28,520 bases of DNA from a virus: positions 1-28,520 of IMG/VR virus record IMGVR_UViG_3300030020_000081; one strand, given 5' to 3'. Position 1 is the stretch's first letter; each line of letters starts with the position of its first letter. A model generated the notes under the pieces. That model ran no database searches. It saw only the letters and a program-made list of their open reading frames with translations, and was not told the origin of the DNA. Shown here in pieces: positions 4,599 to 27,681 of the stretch. Both the position numbers and the translations under genes were made by a program.

Positions 4599-6052
4599 TG
4601 GGCGGTAAGGCGGTTGATTTTCCGCTAGCTACACAGACCTCGCAAGAGAGATCAGTTGAGCAAGATAATAGCTATATCATTAACTATTACGTGACATTTG
4701 ATCCGCGTGGCACTAAGCAGATCATGCACAATCCAGCTCCGGGATATACGCTACGTTATACGTTGAGTACATCTAGTGACCCTATACGCATGATCTATAG
4801 CGATCAAAATAGCGCCTATTCCTACTGCTTAGCGTTCAACTCATCACTGGTTTATCTACTTGATAAGGGGCTTAGAACGATTGTTGTTGGTAACTTAAAT
4901 ACGTCTTCTGGATTTATTGGCGTTACTAGTTCCACGTCTCAAGTACTCATTGTAGATGGCGCTAATGGTTATGTGTATGACATTAACGCATTAACAACTA
5001 CTCCTATTGTTAGCGATAACTTTCTGCCTAACCCGCTCGATTGCGTATTCTTTAATAATTACTTTGTAGTCTGTCAGAGTAATTCGAATCAGTGGTTTAT
5101 ATCTGCAGCAGGTAGTGCTAGTACGTGGAATGCAGCTAATGGAGTTATCTTTAACGCTAAGGCAGATACTTTACAGGGTTGTGCAGCTGTAAATAACACG
5201 TTATTCATATTTGGCAATTACACGATCGAAGTGTGGTACCCGCAGGCTCAGGGATCATTTCCGTTCACTTACAATACTAATATGCTGTTTGAGTTTGGAT
5301 GTATTGCGACAGGATCTATTGCAGAGGGTCAGGGACTATTGATGTGGCTAGCTGGTGATAAAAATGGTGTTGGATCCGTCTATATGACGAACGGAACTAC
5401 CCCAGTTAAGATAAGTACGCAAGAAATAGACTTAACTATCAGAATGTTTGATGTAGTAAGTGATGCAATTGGATTTGTCTTCAAAGAAGCTGGTCATATC
5501 TTTTATCAGCTAACCTTTCCTACAGCTAACGTGACTTTCCTCGTTGACGTTACGCCTACAAATGGTGAGATTAGATGGTCTAATTTAGAGCGCTTAAATG
5601 GTGATTGTCATATAGCCACATGTCACACATACTGGAATGATCAACACTTAATCGGTAGCAGCTTACGAGCTGTCATTAATGATTACTCTACAGATATCTC
5701 TACTGATGATGGAGTGGCTAGACACTATAGAGTTCAGGGGCCACAATTGATGTTGCCTGCATACAATAGATTTAAGATAAACAACTTTGAGGTTAATTTT
5801 CAGGCAGGTACTGCTAATGCTAATTCACCTGGTGATGATCTTAAGGCTTTCCTATCAGTATCTAGTGATGAAGGTCATACTTTTTCAAGCCAGAGACCAG
5901 CTGAGTACGGAAAATTAGGCCAGTATAGATTTAGGGGTCAATGGTATGGGTTGGGTCAAATGCGTAGCTTTTTACCACGTATTGACGTCTACTCAGTGGT
6001 TCCTACATTTATTATGGGCGCTAAAATTGTGATGGAAGAAGGGGGTTCATAA
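4586..6052 (+). CDS. packaged-DNA stabilisation protein, P22 gp10-like
   Basis: A 488-residue protein (P22 gp10 is 472). It is almost all beta structure, with repeats of short strands around FINNYF/VVCQSNS-type motifs, as expected for the beta-propeller-like hub of gp10. The C-terminal part, with RFRGQWYGLGQMRSFLPRI, resembles the end of gp10 where an RxGRIRR/GxxRxF segment occurs. In P22, gp10 plugs the gp4 ring and helps hold the DNA inside. The ATG lies inside the preceding gene and the stop TAA shares its last base with the ATG of the next gene, so the three genes are tightly coupled. A GTG at 4598 is a possible alternative start. Confidence 0.8.
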   Translation: MVYLVGGKAVDFPLATQTSQERSVEQDNSYIINYYVTFDPRGTKQIMHNPAPGYTLRYTLSTSSDPIRMIYSDQNSAYSYCLAFNSSLVYLLDKGLRTIVVGNLNTSSGFIGVTSSTSQVLIVDGANGYVYDINALTTTPIVSDNFLPNPLDCVFFNNYFVVCQSNSNQWFISAAGSASTWNAANGVIFNAKADTLQGCAAVNNTLFIFGNYTIEVWYPQAQGSFPFTYNTNMLFEFGCIATGSIAEGQGLLMWLAGDKNGVGSVYMTNGTTPVKISTQEIDLTIRMFDVVSDAIGFVFKEAGHIFYQLTFPTANVTFLVDVTPTNGEIRWSNLERLNGDCHIATCHTYWNDQHLIGSSLRAVINDYSTDISTDDGVARHYRVQGPQLMLPAYNRFKINNFEVNFQAGTANANSPGDDLKAFLSVSSDEGHTFSSQRPAEYGKLGQYRFRGQWYGLGQMRSFLPRIDVYSVVPTFIMGAKIVMEEGGS

Positions 6053-14419: not shown

Positions 14420-17386
14420 ATGGCTAATGTTTTTTTATGGGATCATGTAATACATGCGCCACTTTCTGCTGCATCAGATTTGGCAGCATTAGATGTTACT
14501 GATTACATCAATGGTGTTGTTGCAAACGTCATTAATTTAGGAATATTTGTTTATAATAATTCCGCTACTGCTACACCTGATAATATTACAGTAGTTCAGC
14601 CAATTACTGGCCCTGGTCGTTGGTTAATCTCAACCCCTAATATCTCTGTGGCTAATGCCGTTCTTGGATCACTTGGTACACCAGGATCACTTTCAGAAAT
14701 ACCATTCACCTCTTTGGCTCGACAATTATCCGCGGAAACTTCAACATCTGCCTATCGTACGGCATTGACAGCTGCTGCAAGTGGTGCAAACTCAGATATT
14801 ACAAGCATATTAGGTCTTACCACGCCATTATCTGGTGCTATGGGTGGAACTGGCATTGCTAATACGGGAGCAACACTAACAATTAGTGGCGCAGCATCGG
14901 TCAGTGGTTCAAATACTGGCGATCAAACTAGTATTACAGGTAATGCAGCTACCGCTACAGCTTTACAGACAGCTAGAACTATTAATGGCGTCAGCTTCAA
15001 TGGTACTGCAAATATAACAGTACCTTCTGCTGCGGGTACATTGACTGGAGCCACTCTTGCATCTAATGTTGTAAGCTCATCACTTACTGGCTTAGGTACA
15101 ATTACTACGGGTATCTGGAACGGAACAGTATTAGCGACTACGTATGGAGGAACAGGAAATACTACTGGCCTAGCATCCTCTGTAGCAGCCGCGAATATTA
15201 CAGGTGGAACATTAGCTAGCAATGTTGTTGCGTCGTCATTAACTTCTCTTGGCACGATTACTACTTTAAATGCAGTTACAGAAACTCTAGGTAGCAATAC
15301 TATTGCTGGCACGTTAAACATATATCCTTCTGGTAATGCACTTGGTTATCTTAACTTGTCGGTTGCTAATAATTCCGGAAATTTCATAACTTCTATTACT
15401 AATGCTGCCCAAGCTGGTGCGCATACTTATACAATTCCTGACGCGGGAGTTAGTACTAACTTTGTAATGGGTGCAGGTACGCAGACATTGGCTGGAACTT
15501 ATACATTCAGCAATACGATAGTAGGTAACATTAGCGGAACATCTGGTACGGCTTCGGCTGTTGCGGCTTCCGCATTGACTGGCACCACATTGGCGTCGAA
15601 TGTTATTGCATCATCCTTAACTTCGTTTGGGTCATCACCATCGTTAACTAGCCCATCATTGTCTAGTCCAACCTTAACTGGGACGATTACTACTTCTGGA
15701 TTAACTGCATCATCTGCTGTCGTTACTAATGGAAGTAGCCAATTAGCATCATTGGCTTATACGTCAGGGCCAACGGCATCGACATTGGCATCTAGAGATG
15801 CAAGCTCTAATGTGGCATTTAATCAAGTTTTTTGTGGCATACCTGGAACATCTCAAGGAGCTTTAACCATTTATACTCCTTCAGCGTCACTAGGAAACAC
15901 AATATTCACTGCTAGCAATAATGCAGGAAACACTCAAACTACTATAAATACAGCCTCACAAGCTGGAGCAAGAGCTTATACAATTCCTGACGCGGGAGTT
16001 AGTACTAACTTTGTAATGGGTGCAGGTACGCAGACATTGGCTGGAACTTATACATTCAGCAATACGATAGTAGGTAACATTAGCGGAACATCTGGTACGG
16101 CTTCGGCTGTTGCGGCTTCCGCATTGACTGGCACCACATTGGCGTCGAATGTTATTGCATCATCCTTAACTTCGTTTGGGTCATCACCATCGTTAACTAG
16201 CCCATCATTGTCTAGTCCAACCTTAACTGGGACGATTACTACTTCTGGATTAACTGCATCATCTGCTGTCGTTACAAATGGTAGTAGTCAATTGGCATCA
16301 TTAGCATATTCTTCATCGGCAACGGCATCAACATTGGCATCTAGAGATTCAAGTGGGACCTGTAGTTTTAATACAGTATTTTTAGGAACTCCAGGATCTG
16401 CCGGTGGTGCTCTAGCTATTAATCCTACATCATCAGGTTTTGGTTATACTTTATTTTATGCTAGTAATAATACTGGGAACACAGTAACTAGTGTGCTGAC
16501 AGCTCCACAAGCTGGAGCAAGAAACTATACGATTCCAGACGCTGGAACAAACGCATCATTTGTAATGACTCAGGGCGCGCAGACCATTGCTGGTGCTACT
16601 ACTTTTTCAACTCCTATTGCAGTAGGTAGTGGCGGTACAGGAGATGCTTCATTTACTGCATATTCAGTAATTTGCGGCGGCACAACTTCAACAGGAGCGT
16701 TACAATCTATTGCTTCAGTAGGAGCTAGCGGCCAAGTATTAACGTCTAATGGCACTAGCGCATTACCTACATGGCAAGCTGGAATTGGTACGGCACTTCA
16801 AATAGTTAACACTCAAACGTTTACATCTAGTGGAACATACACGCCAACTTCAGGAATGCTTTATTGTATTATTGAAGCTGTTGGTGGTGGTGGTGGTGGA
16901 GTTACTACTGGAGCAAGTAACATTTCTTCTGGATCTGGCGGAGGATCTTATACAAAAGGATTATTTACTGCTGCGCAAATTGGATCTTCACAAACAGTAA
17001 CAATTGGTACTGGAGGAACTGCCGGTAATGCAGGGGTTGCAACTTCCGTTTCAACTTTAGTTGTGACAACTGGAGGTGGAATAGGGGTATCGATAACTGT
17101 CGCATCTACTCCAGGAGGAAGCGGTGGCGCAGCTGGTAGTGTAGCTGGTGGGAAGTTAATTATGGCAATTCCGGGTGGTGATGGTGGCCCTGGTCAATTT
17201 ACAACAAATGGTCAAGGATCTGGATTTGGTGGCGCTTCTTTTTATGGATTATCTTGCAAAGGCGCAGCATCAGGGTCGGCAGGAAATGCAGGAAAAAGCT
17301 ATGGTGGTGGAGCATCTGGAACGCAAAATGGCACTGCCGCATCTGGAGCACCTGGTATAGTTATAGTGACTGAGTATTGTAGTTAA
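14420..17386 (+). CDS. long tail fibre/adhesin with repeats and glycine-rich tip
   Basis: A 988-residue Ser/Thr/Ala/Gly-rich protein with a strong SD (GGGGAG). Residues 1-75 form an N-terminal beta-domain that may attach to the tail. From about 120 to 790 come repeated shaft modules: TLASNVxxSSLTxLGTI occurs four times, and a unit with QAGARxYTIPDAG...FVM...GxQTxAGxxTFS occurs three times. A 301-bp stretch encoding residues about 336-436 is repeated without mismatch for residues 519-619. The last 190 residues (from about 800) are a glycine-rich domain starting with TFTSSGTYTPTSGMLYCIIEAVGGGGGG and ending GAPGIVIVTEYC, a known type of phage fibre tip. A host-range adhesin is the likely role. 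Confidence 0.75.
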   Translation: MANVFLWDHVIHAPLSAASDLAALDVTDYINGVVANVINLGIFVYNNSATATPDNITVVQPITGPGRWLISTPNISVANAVLGSLGTPGSLSEIPFTSLARQLSAETSTSAYRTALTAAASGANSDITSILGLTTPLSGAMGGTGIANTGATLTISGAASVSGSNTGDQTSITGNAATATALQTARTINGVSFNGTANITVPSAAGTLTGATLASNVVSSSLTGLGTITTGIWNGTVLATTYGGTGNTTGLASSVAAANITGGTLASNVVASSLTSLGTITTLNAVTETLGSNTIAGTLNIYPSGNALGYLNLSVANNSGNFITSITNAAQAGAHTYTIPDAGVSTNFVMGAGTQTLAGTYTFSNTIVGNISGTSGTASAVAASALTGTTLASNVIASSLTSFGSSPSLTSPSLSSPTLTGTITTSGLTASSAVVTNGSSQLASLAYTSGPTASTLASRDASSNVAFNQVFCGIPGTSQGALTIYTPSASLGNTIFTASNNAGNTQTTINTASQAGARAYTIPDAGVSTNFVMGAGTQTLAGTYTFSNTIVGNISGTSGTASAVAASALTGTTLASNVIASSLTSFGSSPSLTSPSLSSPTLTGTITTSGLTASSAVVTNGSSQLASLAYSSSATASTLASRDSSGTCSFNTVFLGTPGSAGGALAINPTSSGFGYTLFYASNNTGNTVTSVLTAPQAGARNYTIPDAGTNASFVMTQGAQTIAGATTFSTPIAVGSGGTGDASFTAYSVICGGTTSTGALQSIASVGASGQVLTSNGTSALPTWQAGIGTALQIVNTQTFTSSGTYTPTSGMLYCIIEAVGGGGGGVTTGASNISSGSGGGSYTKGLFTAAQIGSSQTVTIGTGGTAGNAGVATSVSTLVVTTGGGIGVSITVASTPGGSGGAAGSVAGGKLIMAIPGGDGGPGQFTTNGQGSGFGGASFYGLSCKGAASGSAGNAGKSYGGGASGTQNGTAASGAPGIVIVTEYCS
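15426..15726 (+). repeat. 301-bp perfect direct repeat in the fibre gene, copy 1
   Basis: Bases 15426-15726 are identical to 15975-16275 by direct reading, with an offset of 549 bases (183 codons, so in frame). Immediately beyond the 3' end the two copies still encode the same residues but differ at six synonymous positions in 36 bases. The sharp edge suggests that the centre was recently homogenised by recombination. Confidence 0.95.
15975..16275 (+). repeat. 301-bp perfect direct repeat in the fibre gene, copy 2
   Basis: Second copy of the repeat at 15426-15726. Recombination between copies would delete or add 183 residues of shaft without changing the frame. A third, diverged partial unit (PQAGARNYTIPDAG) begins near 16503. 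Confidence 0.95.
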
Positions 17387-17970: not shown

Positions 17971-17981
17971 TACTTTTAGGC

Positions 17982-18018
17982 AAAAAAAACCCACAGCGGC
18001 TCTTTAATTCGTTGTGGG
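17982..18018 (-). terminator. rho-independent terminator for leftward transcription
   Basis: CCCACAGCG (17990-17998) pairs with CGTTGTGGG (18010-18018), nine pairs with one G-U, loop of 11 bases. On the minus strand the hairpin is followed by eight T (complement of A at 17982-17989). It would stop transcripts coming leftward from the portal side before they run antisense into the tail genes. On the plus strand no T-run follows, so it should not stop the virion operon efficiently. Confidence 0.75.
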
Positions 18019-18035
18019 CAGTACAAAATCGGAGA

Positions 18036-18064
18036 TTGACAGACCGTTTGTATAAAGTAATTAT
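18036..18064 (+). promoter_or_regulatory. candidate promoter for the Met-rich gene
   Basis: A perfect TTGACA -35 at 18036-18041 is followed at 16-18 bases by AT-rich -10 candidates (TAATTA 18058-18063, AATTAT 18059-18064, ATTATA 18060-18065). It lies between the leftward terminator and the 80-residue gene at 18119, so that gene may have its own promoter. Confidence 0.45.
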
Positions 18065-18118
18065 AGAGTGTTAACATTATTATTGTCAATAATGACATTA
18101 ACTAACAAGGTGAAAGTT

Positions 18119-18361: not shown

Positions 18362-18368
18362 TATTATT

Positions 18369-18408
18369 TAAACCCCGGGGGTCTTCCTCAATAGCAAGCC
18401 GGGGTTTA
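18369..18408. terminator. strong hairpin at the convergent junction, terminator candidate
   Basis: TAAACCCCGG (18369-18378) pairs with CCGGGGTTTA (18399-18408), ten perfect pairs around a 20-base loop. It lies between the last rightward gene and the leftward HNH pseudogene, and the AT ends of the stem could serve both strands. The T-run after it is poor on either strand. Confidence 0.6.
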
Positions 18409-18411
18409 ACT

Positions 18412-18908
18412 TTATTTACATTTATAAAATTCATCATGATTATTTTTCGCGAAATTATCATAAGAATTTACAGCTTCTTCTTTCGTATAAAAAACTTCCT
18501 AAAAAATATCTCTTTCCATTCAAGCAAGCTGCTGCACACCATTTTTTATTGTATTTTGTTTGATAAATTCCCTTAGATCTTGTCTTGTTATCACATCTAA
18601 TACGTTGTTTTATTATATTATCAGATCCTGTTACTGCTCTTAAATTAGAGATCCTATTATCATCTAAAATTAAATTAATATGATCAATCGTTTGCGGGGA
18701 TAAATCATTGTACATATATATCCAAGCCAATCTGTGTGCTAAATACTGTTTACTGTTTATCTTTCAAACCTATTGTTCTATATCCTGCAGCTGTTTTAGT
18801 ACCGGAAATCGATCCTATTTTAGCTTTATGACTGGTAGACTTCCACGTAAAATTACCTGTCTCAGGATTATATTCTAATTTTTCTTTCAATTCAGATTGT
18901 GTGATCAT
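18412..18908 (-). pseudogene. HNH-AP2 homing endonuclease, inactivated by two frameshifts
   Basis: Read leftward from ATG 18908: MITQSELKEKLEYNPETGNFTW starts a protein almost identical in pattern to the HNH protein at 27379-27681, then a stop appears. The cause is visible: a tandem duplication of ACTGTTT (18745-18751 and 18752-18758, plus strand). Removing one copy restores DKQYLAHRLAWIYMYNDLS, then the HNH core IDHINLILDDNRISNLRAV. A second lesion is in a run of six A (18489-18494); with five, the frame continues LGSFYTKEEAVNSYDNFAK to a TAA at 18414-18412, completing an AP2-like DNA-binding domain. The reconstructed protein is about 163 residues. Sequencing error is possible for the homopolymer but not for the 7-bp duplication. 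Confidence 0.85.
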
Positions 18909-18936
18909 TTTTAGTCCTAGCTATAGGTGAGTGAGT

Positions 18937-18989
18937 GTCAGCATCGACAACCGCTAGGAATGGTCGATATTATGGACTCCTCCACTGAC
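18937..18989. ncRNA. structured element A of a tandem pair (undescribed)
   Basis: The outer stem GTCAG (18937-18941) / CTGAC (18985-18989) encloses a hairpin ATCGAC (18943-18948) / GTCGAT (18963-18968) with a loop containing GGAATG, then a second hairpin TGGA-CTCC-TCCA (18973-18984). The result is a three-way junction in either strand. It shares length, outer stem and GGAATGG with element B while the inner stem sequence differs. It lies downstream of the portal gene on the leftward transcript. A DNA site is equally possible. Confidence 0.4.
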
Positions 18990-19029
18990 GGTATAATTAT
19001 ATAACAACTTAATATTGATATCTATATAA

Positions 19030-19085
19030 TTGTCAGCTTATGCCAAACTGGAATGGCAAAACTTGCGTCTTTTCAGAACTGACAA
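19030..19085. ncRNA. structured element B of a tandem pair (undescribed)
   Basis: The outer stem TTGTCAG (19030-19036) / CTGACAA (19079-19085) encloses a hairpin TGCCA (19041-19045) / TGGCA (19054-19058) whose loop contains CTGGAA. A weak AT-only second hairpin may follow. It starts 95 bases from the matching point of element A. The intervening DNA is very AT-rich with an inverted AATTATATA/TATATAATT pair. It begins about 14 bases after the portal stop codon on the leftward strand. Confidence 0.4.
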
Positions 19086-19098
19086 CCTATTATATCAA

Positions 19099-21462
19099 TT
19101 AATCCTCTACTATTACCGATGGATGATTATTGCGGAAATCATGTAGACCTTGAAGATGGGTTTTATGGATTTCAGCAGTTTTACCATGTGCATCTAGTAT
19201 AGATTTATGCATATTTCCAGCAAGTTTCATTCCCTCGACTTCAATATTAGCATCACTATGATATCGTTCAGCGTCAGTAGTTGCCTTTATTTCTTGCAGA
19301 GATAAATCGGCCTTTTCTCTTTCTACATTGTTCTTATCGGCTGCAATAACATTTTTCTCATGTTCATTTTTAGCTAATATTTTCTTTAATTCAATCTCTT
19401 GTTGCTGTAATTGAAGCTCAATTTTCTTCAAGTCTTGATCTCCGGCCTTTAATTGCAGCTCTCCTTGTTTCAACTGTAGGTCACCTTGTTTAAGTTGCAT
19501 TTCTATCTGCATCATCTGATCTTCAGGATTAGGTTTTTTAGGTTCTTCCGGCATATCCATCTCTTCACGCAGAATATCAGCAGGATTTTTACCAAGAATA
19601 ACTTGTCGTATACGATCTACAATTTGAGTCGTATTTTCAAGATCAGTATTAGCAGCATAAAGATCAGCCAGTGCGCCAACAAGCATAGGATTACTTGGAG
19701 CAAGAGTGGCCATAAGGTCTTTAAGAGAGTCCATATTTTCTTGCTTCTGAATTTCATAGTTGCTGCCAACAGTAACTTCAATTCCATAATTACCTTTTGT
19801 TAGATCATTTTCGTAGTCATCACCTTTGGGCTTGTTGATATTGACGATGCTTTGATCACCAGATGCCTTTCTAACTGTTATATTACGTGTACTATCATAA
19901 AGAGACGGAATTAATGACATTACACACTTTGCGGTCTGCTCAATAGCTCTGCCCCAGTTATCAAAGTACACAAAACTAGCCATTGATCCTTGTTTAGCTC
20001 GGTTATTGATAGCAACACCTGACTTTTCATTACCTTGTTCGCCAGTATTTGCCTCAAAATAACCTAATGTGTTTTTAATATCTTGCGTGGATTGCTGAAA
20101 CAATTGCATAAAGTTAGGTGATATTTGAGGGGGTGCCACCTGCTCCGGCATGATTCCTTGATCTCTATTGGCTACGAGAGCGCCTTTAGCTAATGAAGGA
20201 TTTCTCCACATTGCTTCGTAACCCTTGAAGTTTTCAGGTGTTCCGATCCACTGTTCTTTATGAGAATTCATCAAGTTCTCAATAGCTTCGGACGCCGTGT
20301 AATTAACTATTTTCTGCGCATCTTTAGCTGTTCGGTGATAAGACTTGGTGAATTGCTTGCCTTCAATAAATTGACTATGGCCATCTACAAAGATAATTGG
20401 CATTATTTTACTAGGCCATACAGCCTCTTCTAAGATCTCATCCTCAGACATGATGTAATTCATTATCTTGTAGTCGATGGTATCTCTAGTATCGACAATT
20501 TCTAGTGCTTCATGAGTATCTAAAAAAGAATTATCATTAATTCCGAAGCCTAAAGAGGTCATTGTCTTCTTTAACTTCTTCTCTTTGCTCTTAACGCGAG
20601 AGATCATTTCTTGATGCAGCTTAACCTCTTCTCTAGCCTCAGATATTTCTAGTGATCTGCCATCGCTTAAAAGGGCAATCTGCATAGGGTAAGCTTCTTT
20701 CACATACATGTTTGCTACTCTAACCCATTCTTCAGAGCGCCAAAAGCTATCAGATTCTCTATTTAGCTGAGTCGAAGGGAATGAAGAGGGCATTTCGTCT
20801 GCAAAATCTTTCTTTCTATCTGGAAATTTATCGTTAAACTCCTGGATTGTGTAAGTAATCATCTCACCGCAAAACTTACTATCTGATTTAGTTGCTTCTT
20901 TAGCTGTGGAATCCCAAAAACATGTTAAAGGATCATCAATTGCCCTAAATTTTGGCACTTGATTAAAGGACATGTCCGATTCATACTCAACATGAACAGC
21001 AATGGCGCCAAATCCACGTAATAACGCGCTTTCACCGGCTTGTTGAAATACAATTTCTGACTTATTGTCAAAAAATATTTGTCTCATTAGTCCATCGTAT
21101 AGATCAATCTGTGGCTGGCTTACTTCAGCATTTGGGTTGCTTTCATCGGTCGTCGTGTATACCTTAAATTCTGGGGTTTGCTTACGATATTGGCCGACTA
21201 AGCTGGCAATAAGGGCATAGATATAATTAATTTGCAGGCAAGCTTTGCCTTCTTGAACTCGCTCTTGATATAAATTTTGATCCCACTGATTAATGACGGC
21301 AAAGTAAATATCCTCTTTAGCGTTTTCAATATTCATGTTGAAGTACGCGAACCATTCGTTAACGCGCTCAATGGACCTAGAAATAAATTGATCGTCATCT
21401 AAATCACGATCTGGCTTTTCATCTGATACAGCTTGGCCAAGTAAATAACTTGTTTTTGGCAT
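19099..21462 (-). CDS. portal protein, P22 gp1-like
   Basis: A 787-residue protein (P22 portal 725). The first 250 residues have the P22-portal pattern: RVNEWFAYFNMNIENAKEDIYFAV, QWDQNLYQERVQEGKACLQIN, SLVGQYRKQTPEFKVY, GESALLRGFGAIAVHVEYE and FRAIDDPLTCFWDSTAKEATKSDS. A central VDGHSQFIEGK stretch and the later NYTASEAIENLMNSHKEQWIG helix complete the family signature. Residues about 645-740 are a Gln/Lys/Glu-rich coiled coil with repeated LQLKQGE-type heptads, in the place of the P22 barrel. The ring forms the DNA entry vertex and docks terminase. Its ATG lies one base after the large terminase stop with GGAGAT as SD. It is transcribed toward the virion operon, unlike in P22. Confidence 0.9.
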   Translation of the reverse strand: MPKTSYLLGQAVSDEKPDRDLDDDQFISRSIERVNEWFAYFNMNIENAKEDIYFAVINQWDQNLYQERVQEGKACLQINYIYALIASLVGQYRKQTPEFKVYTTTDESNPNAEVSQPQIDLYDGLMRQIFFDNKSEIVFQQAGESALLRGFGAIAVHVEYESDMSFNQVPKFRAIDDPLTCFWDSTAKEATKSDSKFCGEMITYTIQEFNDKFPDRKKDFADEMPSSFPSTQLNRESDSFWRSEEWVRVANMYVKEAYPMQIALLSDGRSLEISEAREEVKLHQEMISRVKSKEKKLKKTMTSLGFGINDNSFLDTHEALEIVDTRDTIDYKIMNYIMSEDEILEEAVWPSKIMPIIFVDGHSQFIEGKQFTKSYHRTAKDAQKIVNYTASEAIENLMNSHKEQWIGTPENFKGYEAMWRNPSLAKGALVANRDQGIMPEQVAPPQISPNFMQLFQQSTQDIKNTLGYFEANTGEQGNEKSGVAINNRAKQGSMASFVYFDNWGRAIEQTAKCVMSLIPSLYDSTRNITVRKASGDQSIVNINKPKGDDYENDLTKGNYGIEVTVGSNYEIQKQENMDSLKDLMATLAPSNPMLVGALADLYAANTDLENTTQIVDRIRQVILGKNPADILREEMDMPEEPKKPNPEDQMMQIEMQLKQGDLQLKQGELQLKAGDQDLKKIELQLQQQEIELKKILAKNEHEKNVIAADKNNVEREKADLSLQEIKATTDAERYHSDANIEVEGMKLAGNMHKSILDAHGKTAEIHKTHLQGLHDFRNNHPSVIVED

Positions 21463-25276: not shown

Positions 25277-25594
25277 TTATTTCCCTGTTATAGATTTATT
25301 TGGAATCCTATAGCTCTTTTTGAGATTATCAAGCCTATTATCATTTCTTAAGGAGTTCTCATGGTCAATTCTATGTTGAGGCCATCTACCATTCATGTAC
25401 AAAAAAACAAGTCTGTGTGCATAGTGAGACATTCCACCTAATCCTATTACCACATAGCCATTCTTAGTTATGGACCCTGCAATTTTCCCGAATTTTACTT
25501 TCTGACGTGAAGTTATCCAGGTAAATAACCCTGATTCAGGGCAATAGTTCAGGTTTTCCTTAAGCAGTTTCTGAGTTACTTTTTTATGCTTCAT
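25277..25594 (-). CDS. HNH endonuclease, short homing type
   Basis: A 105-residue member of the HNH_3 type: N-terminal CPESGLFTWITS module, GKIAGSITKNGYVVIGL, then AHRLVFLYMNGRWPQHRIDHENSLRNDNRLDNLK with the catalytic Asp-His, Asn and Asn residues in place. The related gene at 18412-18908 has an AP2 domain after this core; here the protein ends 14 residues after it (KSYRIPNKSITGK), so it is probably C-terminally truncated. It overlaps the upstream gene by ATGA and ends one base before thyX, inserted without disturbing either. Such free-standing endonucleases spread by homing into phage genomes. Confidence 0.85.
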   Translation of the reverse strand: MKHKKVTQKLLKENLNYCPESGLFTWITSRQKVKFGKIAGSITKNGYVVIGLGGMSHYAHRLVFLYMNGRWPQHRIDHENSLRNDNRLDNLKKSYRIPNKSITGK

Positions 25595-27378: not shown

Positions 27379-27681
27379 TTAATATTTAATTCTTGCGTTT
27401 ATTTTCTTGTCCGTTTCTTTTAAATTTACAAGTCTATTGTCATGTCTATCTAAATTAATATGTAACATTGTGTTAGGCCAATACCCATGCACATATAGCC
27501 ATGCCAGTCTGTGAGCTAGGTATGGTCTTCTATTAATGCCAATCCTAATTTCACCGTTATACTTAGTGCCGGCAATCTTACCCTTTACTGCACCACCACC
27601 AATCTTTGTTTTTAACCAGATAAACTTACCAGTCTCTGGGTTATATTTAAGATTATCTTTCAGCTCATCTTGTGTAATCAT
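27379..27681 (-). CDS. HNH endonuclease fragment, active-site Asp replaced
   Basis: A 100-residue homing-type HNH protein. ITQDELKDNLKYNPETGKFIW at its start closely parallels the pseudogene at 18412-18908, and LAHRLAWLYVHGYWPN precedes the core. The core reads TMLHINLDRHDNRLVNLK: His and both Asn are kept, but the Asp before the His, which in HNH enzymes binds the metal, is Leu. The protein stops 12 residues after the core without an AP2 domain. It overlaps the RusA stop by one base (TGATG) and has AAAGGT as SD, so it is probably translated, but nuclease activity is doubtful. Confidence 0.8.
   Translation of the reverse strand: MITQDELKDNLKYNPETGKFIWLKTKIGGGAVKGKIAGTKYNGEIRIGINRRPYLAHRLAWLYVHGYWPNTMLHINLDRHDNRLVNLKETDKKINARIKY

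Follow-up and report, generated by a model that had tools for sequence, protein, structure and literature searches.

The window, here the whole stretch of 28,520 nucleotides of viral DNA that was analysed, carries a P22-like portal gene and, further along the same minus strand, a gene for an HNH_3 homing endonuclease. Between the portal stop (19099) and the HNH_3 start (18908) lie two short structured elements, A and B, and beyond the HNH gene an inverted repeat divides two convergent operons (Table 1). An earlier note on this DNA had described two elements of 52-53 bases with starts 95 apart, a shared outer stem (GTCAG/CTGAC) and a common GGAATGG, and all of these can be read directly in the sequence. 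On the plus strand element A runs from GTCAG to CTGAC over 18937-18989 (53 nt), with the inner stem ATCGAC/GTCGAT and a second hairpin TGGACTCCTCCA, while B occupies 19032-19083 (52 nt) with the inner stem TGCCA/TGGCA, or 19030-19085 (56 nt) if its 7-bp P1 stem is counted. That note placed the pair correctly behind the portal gene; it missed the strand (minus), the promoters, the position of A as leader of the HNH gene and the loop of A that is complementary to the ribosome-binding site (RBS).

Table 1. Features of the locus between the portal gene and the inverted repeat (window coordinates)
Feature	Position	Strand	Basis or remark
P22-like portal gene, upstream of the elements	19099..21462	-	P22_portal match, E 1e-117
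Extended -10 promoter box TGATATAAT, before B	19089..19097	-	sole TGNTATAAT in window; L004 keeps TGTTATAAT at same place
Element B, three-way-junction RNA: P1 7 bp, P2 3 bp with GNRA loop, P3 8 bp (one mismatch) with 8-nt loop UUCCAGUU	19030..19085	-	read directly; B versus L004 changes
B P1 5' strand TTGTCAG, partner 19030-19036	19079..19085	-	pairs 1-56 and 4-53: U-A to G-C and C-G in L004
B P2 hairpin TCT-GAAA-AGA	19068..19077	-	pair 9-18: U-A to C-G in L004, loop remains GNRA
B P3 hairpin, loop sequence kept in L004	19038..19061	-	pairs 28-45 and 29-44 changed on both sides; 30-43 becomes wobble
Promoter-like TAGATA-17-TATAAT, before A	18996..19024	-	10/12 matches
Element A, probable diverged paralogue: P1 5 bp, P2 TGGA-GGAG-TCCA, P3 about 7 bp, loop CAUUCCUAGCGGUU	18937..18989	-	direct reading and global alignment
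Linker with HNH ribosome-binding site GCUAGGA, complementary to P3 loop UCCUAGC of A over 7 nt	18910..18936	-	shuffle and genome-window pairing test
HNH_3 homing-endonuclease gene, frame broken at two places	18427..18908 (end approximate)	-	HNH_3 match and frames read
Inverted repeat AAACCCCGG...CCGGGGTTT between convergent operons, likely bidirectional terminator	18366..18410	.	read directly

This portal was found on four IMG/VR contigs, three of which are the same phage and the fourth of which (L004) is a recombinant. The first 1500 nt of the L004 portal gene are 100% identical to the window and most of the remaining 900 nt are 75-94% identical; this 3' tract includes one 100-nt bin at 100%, and identity falls to 69% beside the element. 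Past the inverted repeat L004 is again about 100% identical to the window. Both A and the HNH gene are absent from L004, which holds a single element in the place of B, followed after 20 nt by the inverted repeat, with too little space between them for a gene. In the window, A and the broken HNH gene intervene between B and this repeat. The L004 repeat has a 20-nt loop and a short U run, and it went unflagged by the simple terminator scan, which admits short loops only. The differences from window positions 19030-20000 thus form a recombination tract of about 900 nt over the portal 3' end and B that stops at the inverted repeat. This tract coincides with the presence or absence of the HNH cassette, and it could reflect co-conversion.

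Element B and its L004 counterpart are both 56 nt long and can be aligned gap-free; they differ by 15 substitutions, ten of which make up five compensatory pairs spread across P1, P2 and P3. On the minus strand 5 of the 18 pairs are altered on both sides, one has turned into a wobble and none is broken, whereas sliding the partners by 1-3 columns as a control leaves no double change. When the 15 substitutions were placed randomly, at least five doubles arose in 12 of 1,000,000 trials, and in none of 1,000,000 with no pair broken as well, figures that are somewhat flattering, as these same two sequences had served to select the structure. When the minimum-energy fold of B alone is used instead, the signal drops: two pairs are doubles and three are broken. 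That fold has a different P2, and its P1 end is shifted, which explains the drop; P1 and P3 occur essentially in both folds. In the shared fold the P2 loop is GAAA or GCAA and the P3 loop is UUCCAGUU. The alternative P2 of B, AGAC-GCAA-GUUU, also has a GNRA loop and an almost equal energy with zero double changes, and it may be an alternate fold. Since the compensatory changes fall in three stems including P2, B is also a three-way junction, so that both elements are of this kind. The second hairpin that the earlier note saw in A, making it a three-way junction, holds, although the corresponding P2 hairpin of B had escaped it.

A homologous copy with compensatory changes, which had been proposed as the check on these elements, exists in L004, with five double changes and no broken pair. 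Selection on structure, as claimed before, is borne out by this comparison; the differing inner stems of A and B, then read as covariation, are no evidence by themselves since A and B are too diverged there. On the sequences of its two independent representatives B is a conserved structured RNA, better supported than A. The single-sequence stability of the elements is modest (minus strand, z -3.2 for B and -1.1 for A), and a loose descriptor of the shape alone matched many places, so that shape by itself is too unspecific. What exceeds chance is the compensatory pattern together with the conserved promoter box.

The minus strand, which has the same sense as the portal and HNH genes, is the biologically likely one, because the small hairpin there has a GNRA loop in B (UCU-GAAA-AGA) and in L004, because G-U pairs appear, and because the two-sequence consensus energy (alifold) is better, at -17.1 against -10.2 for the plus strand. 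These observations bear on the proposal that the locus is a DNA site (for recombination or packaging, a cruciform or an operator) whose stems act as inverted repeats. Compensatory changes preserve DNA inverted repeats too, the phage has RusA- and RecT-like proteins and the recombination tract ends at the locus. However, GNRA loops and U-G changes make sense only as minus-strand RNA, a DNA site bound by protein does not usually have nested stems such as P2 and P3, and the window proteins that were scanned included none recognisable as integrase-like. A DNA site is therefore very unlikely.

The relationship between A and B, also suggested previously, was recovered by global alignment of the elements alone, where the A-B score was reached by 0 of 5000 shuffles and the A-L004 score by 3 of 5000. 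It is a distant one: local alignment of A with the others was much weaker, and a covariance model of B and L004 alone scored A at only 9.1 bits (E 3.3 in the window). Features in common are GTCAG/CTGAC, a tetraloop hairpin directly after it, the junction AA and CCATTCC in the P3 loop; the P1 end of A is mismatched. We take A to be a distant, diverged paralogue of B.

No family of Rfam 15 reached its gathering score in the window, and the element region and L004 gave only chance-level matches to Rfam at E up to 10, in agreement with the first impression that no known ribozyme or riboswitch is matched. Nor were homologues beyond this lineage found at 80 loci with portal relatives, of which almost all are about 23-29% identical, by pattern scans of IMG/VR and species genomes, near HNH relatives, or with one covariance model against 274 gammaproteobacterial genomes; the search in IMG/VR is limited by the small number of close relatives there. 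Apparent hits at L007, L233 and L324 were chance matches, those at L007 and L324 lying within coding sequence. The loop of B, compared with the phage's own start regions as antisense targets, performed no better than shuffled loops. Three hairpins in tandem, GTTTACGT...ACGGGT or similar, occupy the portal-scaffold gap of L332, a distant portal relative (33% identity; 5240-5341, minus strand); their inner stems differ yet pair, and their sequence is unrelated to A and B. Elsewhere in the window, the tail-fibre gene (15368-16546) is internally repetitive, with long direct repeats that agree at about 84% over 632 bases.

The compact junction and the tandem arrangement in a phage recall the hammerhead and other small self-cleaving ribozymes, from which these elements differ in having no matching core; such cores were rejected for lack of an Rfam match. 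An undescribed class of small self-cleaving ribozyme or ligand-binding RNA might instead be built around the unpaired nucleotides conserved between B and L004, the junction CGNAAG and the loop UUCCAGUU. This is highly improbable, as permissive thresholds gave no Rfam ribozyme or riboswitch match, there is no sign of a cleavage site, and the conserved unpaired bases come from two sequences only.

In B and L004 a TATAAT precedes the G of the P1 motif GNCAG by 5 nt, and in A by 6 nt. The hexamer is otherwise rare in the window (23 found against 44 expected), the extended box TGNTATAAT occurs once in the whole 28.5 kb, exactly before B, and L004 retains TGTTATAAT though its flanks differ. A -35-like TAGATA stands before A at 17-nt spacing from its TATAAT; no good -35 box was found before B. 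The pattern TATAAT-N4-7-GNCAGT-N19-25-CATTCC matched 80 contigs over all IMG/VR, and only A, B and the L004 element add a Watson-Crick P1 with a P2, a scan that shows rarity and not independence as the pattern was derived from these elements. With TATAAT 5-6 nt ahead of P1 in all three, each element is probably the 5' end of its own transcript, with the likely start at P1. The L004 product is probably a small RNA of roughly 110 nt closed by the inverted repeat, and the layout of its locus would be that of phage small RNAs generally (own promoter, structured 5' part, terminator hairpin); the L004 element and B belong to no known sequence family. A second small-RNA-like gene is seen at 17979-18089 (minus strand), with a perfect TTGACA-18-TATAAT (12/12), a length of about 75 nt and a hairpin CCCACA...TGTGGG followed by eight T; it has no Rfam match.

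Alternatively, the TATAAT boxes could be incidental and B a 3'-untranslated structure of the terminase-portal message on read-through RNA, where it would block 3' exonucleases or, as an RNase III site, trim the message. B begins about 13 nt past the portal stop in both variants, ahead of the inverted repeat. Moreover, P1 of B and L004 runs 2 bp upstream of the likely start and its outermost pair covaries, which counts against an own start and fits read-through from the portal message better. Set against this are the window's only TGNTATAAT, placed exactly at B and kept in L004, and the same box and spacing at A, which is not at a gene end. A 3'-untranslated role is possible but rather doubtful. 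Of the three roles first offered for the pair, a small RNA is the best supported for B, by its own TATAAT box and the L004 inverted repeat 20 nt downstream; an mRNA 3' element is possible, and a DNA recombination or packaging site found no support.

By its position A is the 5' leader of the broken HNH endonuclease gene, which starts 28 nt after it. The P3 loop of A, UCCUAGC, is a perfect 7-nt complement of GCUAGGA, a pairing equalled by 15 of 5000 shuffled linkers and by 16 of 2192 genome windows (0.7%), that is p of about 0.003-0.007 before counting the other things looked at. The predicted ensemble has the UAGG core of the RBS paired at more than 90%; the three-way-junction form of the leader (-19.2) scarcely differs from the loop-to-RBS form (-19.6), and both have the core paired. 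As A has a mismatched P1 end and a dead gene behind it, this predicted pairing may be a relic or chance. The other HNH_3 genes of the window, at 25277-25594 and 27379-27681 (minus strand), have open frames and each overlaps the preceding gene, leaving no room for such a leader.

In T4-type homing endonuclease genes the RBS is sequestered by RNA structure (I-TevI, segB, Aeh1 mobE; PMC2988022). Element A resembles those leaders (PMC2988022) in that it is structured and immediately precedes the RBS of a free-standing HNH gene, an RBS that is predicted to be paired. It differs in being a three-way junction whose loop reaches the RBS, and the gene is broken. In addition, A seems to have a start of its own; the structures of the T4 genes arise within RNAs transcribed from early and middle promoters further upstream. 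The likeness would be one of mechanism and not of family membership. It could also be supposed that A and B are both leaders from mobile HNH cassettes, with B left over from an older insertion and now without a function of its own. The place of A directly before the HNH RBS, the predicted loop pairing and the coming and going of HNH genes, with none in L004, agree with this origin. Nevertheless B is constrained in L004 despite the lack of an HNH gene there, and the HNH relatives that turned up, at 35-38% identity, lack an upstream element of this kind, which makes it unlikely.

The explanation that we favour, with about an even chance of being right, is that A and B each form the 5' end of a separate transcript from the minus strand, B belonging to a small RNA and A to the HNH leader. 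RNA polymerase would start at or beside the G of P1, so that the RNA would open with a closed junction; this would shield the 5' end and offer the P3 loop (UUCC...) and the GNRA hairpin to a partner. The L004 product, probably also that of the ancestor, would be a small RNA of about 110 nt made of the junction, a 20-nt linker and the terminator hairpin, while in the window the cassette of A and the HNH gene would lie between junction and terminator. The P3 loop of A could pair with the HNH RBS and so repress translation, which is what hairpins do in T4-type homing endonuclease genes.

A junction RNA encoded beside packaging genes also brings to mind the phi29 pRNA (e.g. PMC6765105), likewise a phage RNA with a three-way junction. 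The defining feature of phi29-type pRNA is that it is required for the packaging ATPase at the portal. Here there is no Rfam match, a P22-like portal and a Terminase_6-type terminase take the place of the phi29 motor, the junction domain is much smaller and a packaging role is speculative. It is extremely improbable that B serves packaging in a P22-like phage much as pRNA does in phi29, by binding the portal-terminase motor; if it did, a small three-way-junction RNA would be made next to the terminase and portal genes.

The best reading of B and the L004 element is that they represent a new, narrow and so far very rare phage RNA family. This would be a structured phage RNA absent from every library searched and backed by natural compensatory changes, and the locus indicates that an endonuclease cassette with a related leader can lodge inside such a place. 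Should the RNA be produced and work in trans, a new and very small regulator would be encoded next to the packaging genes.
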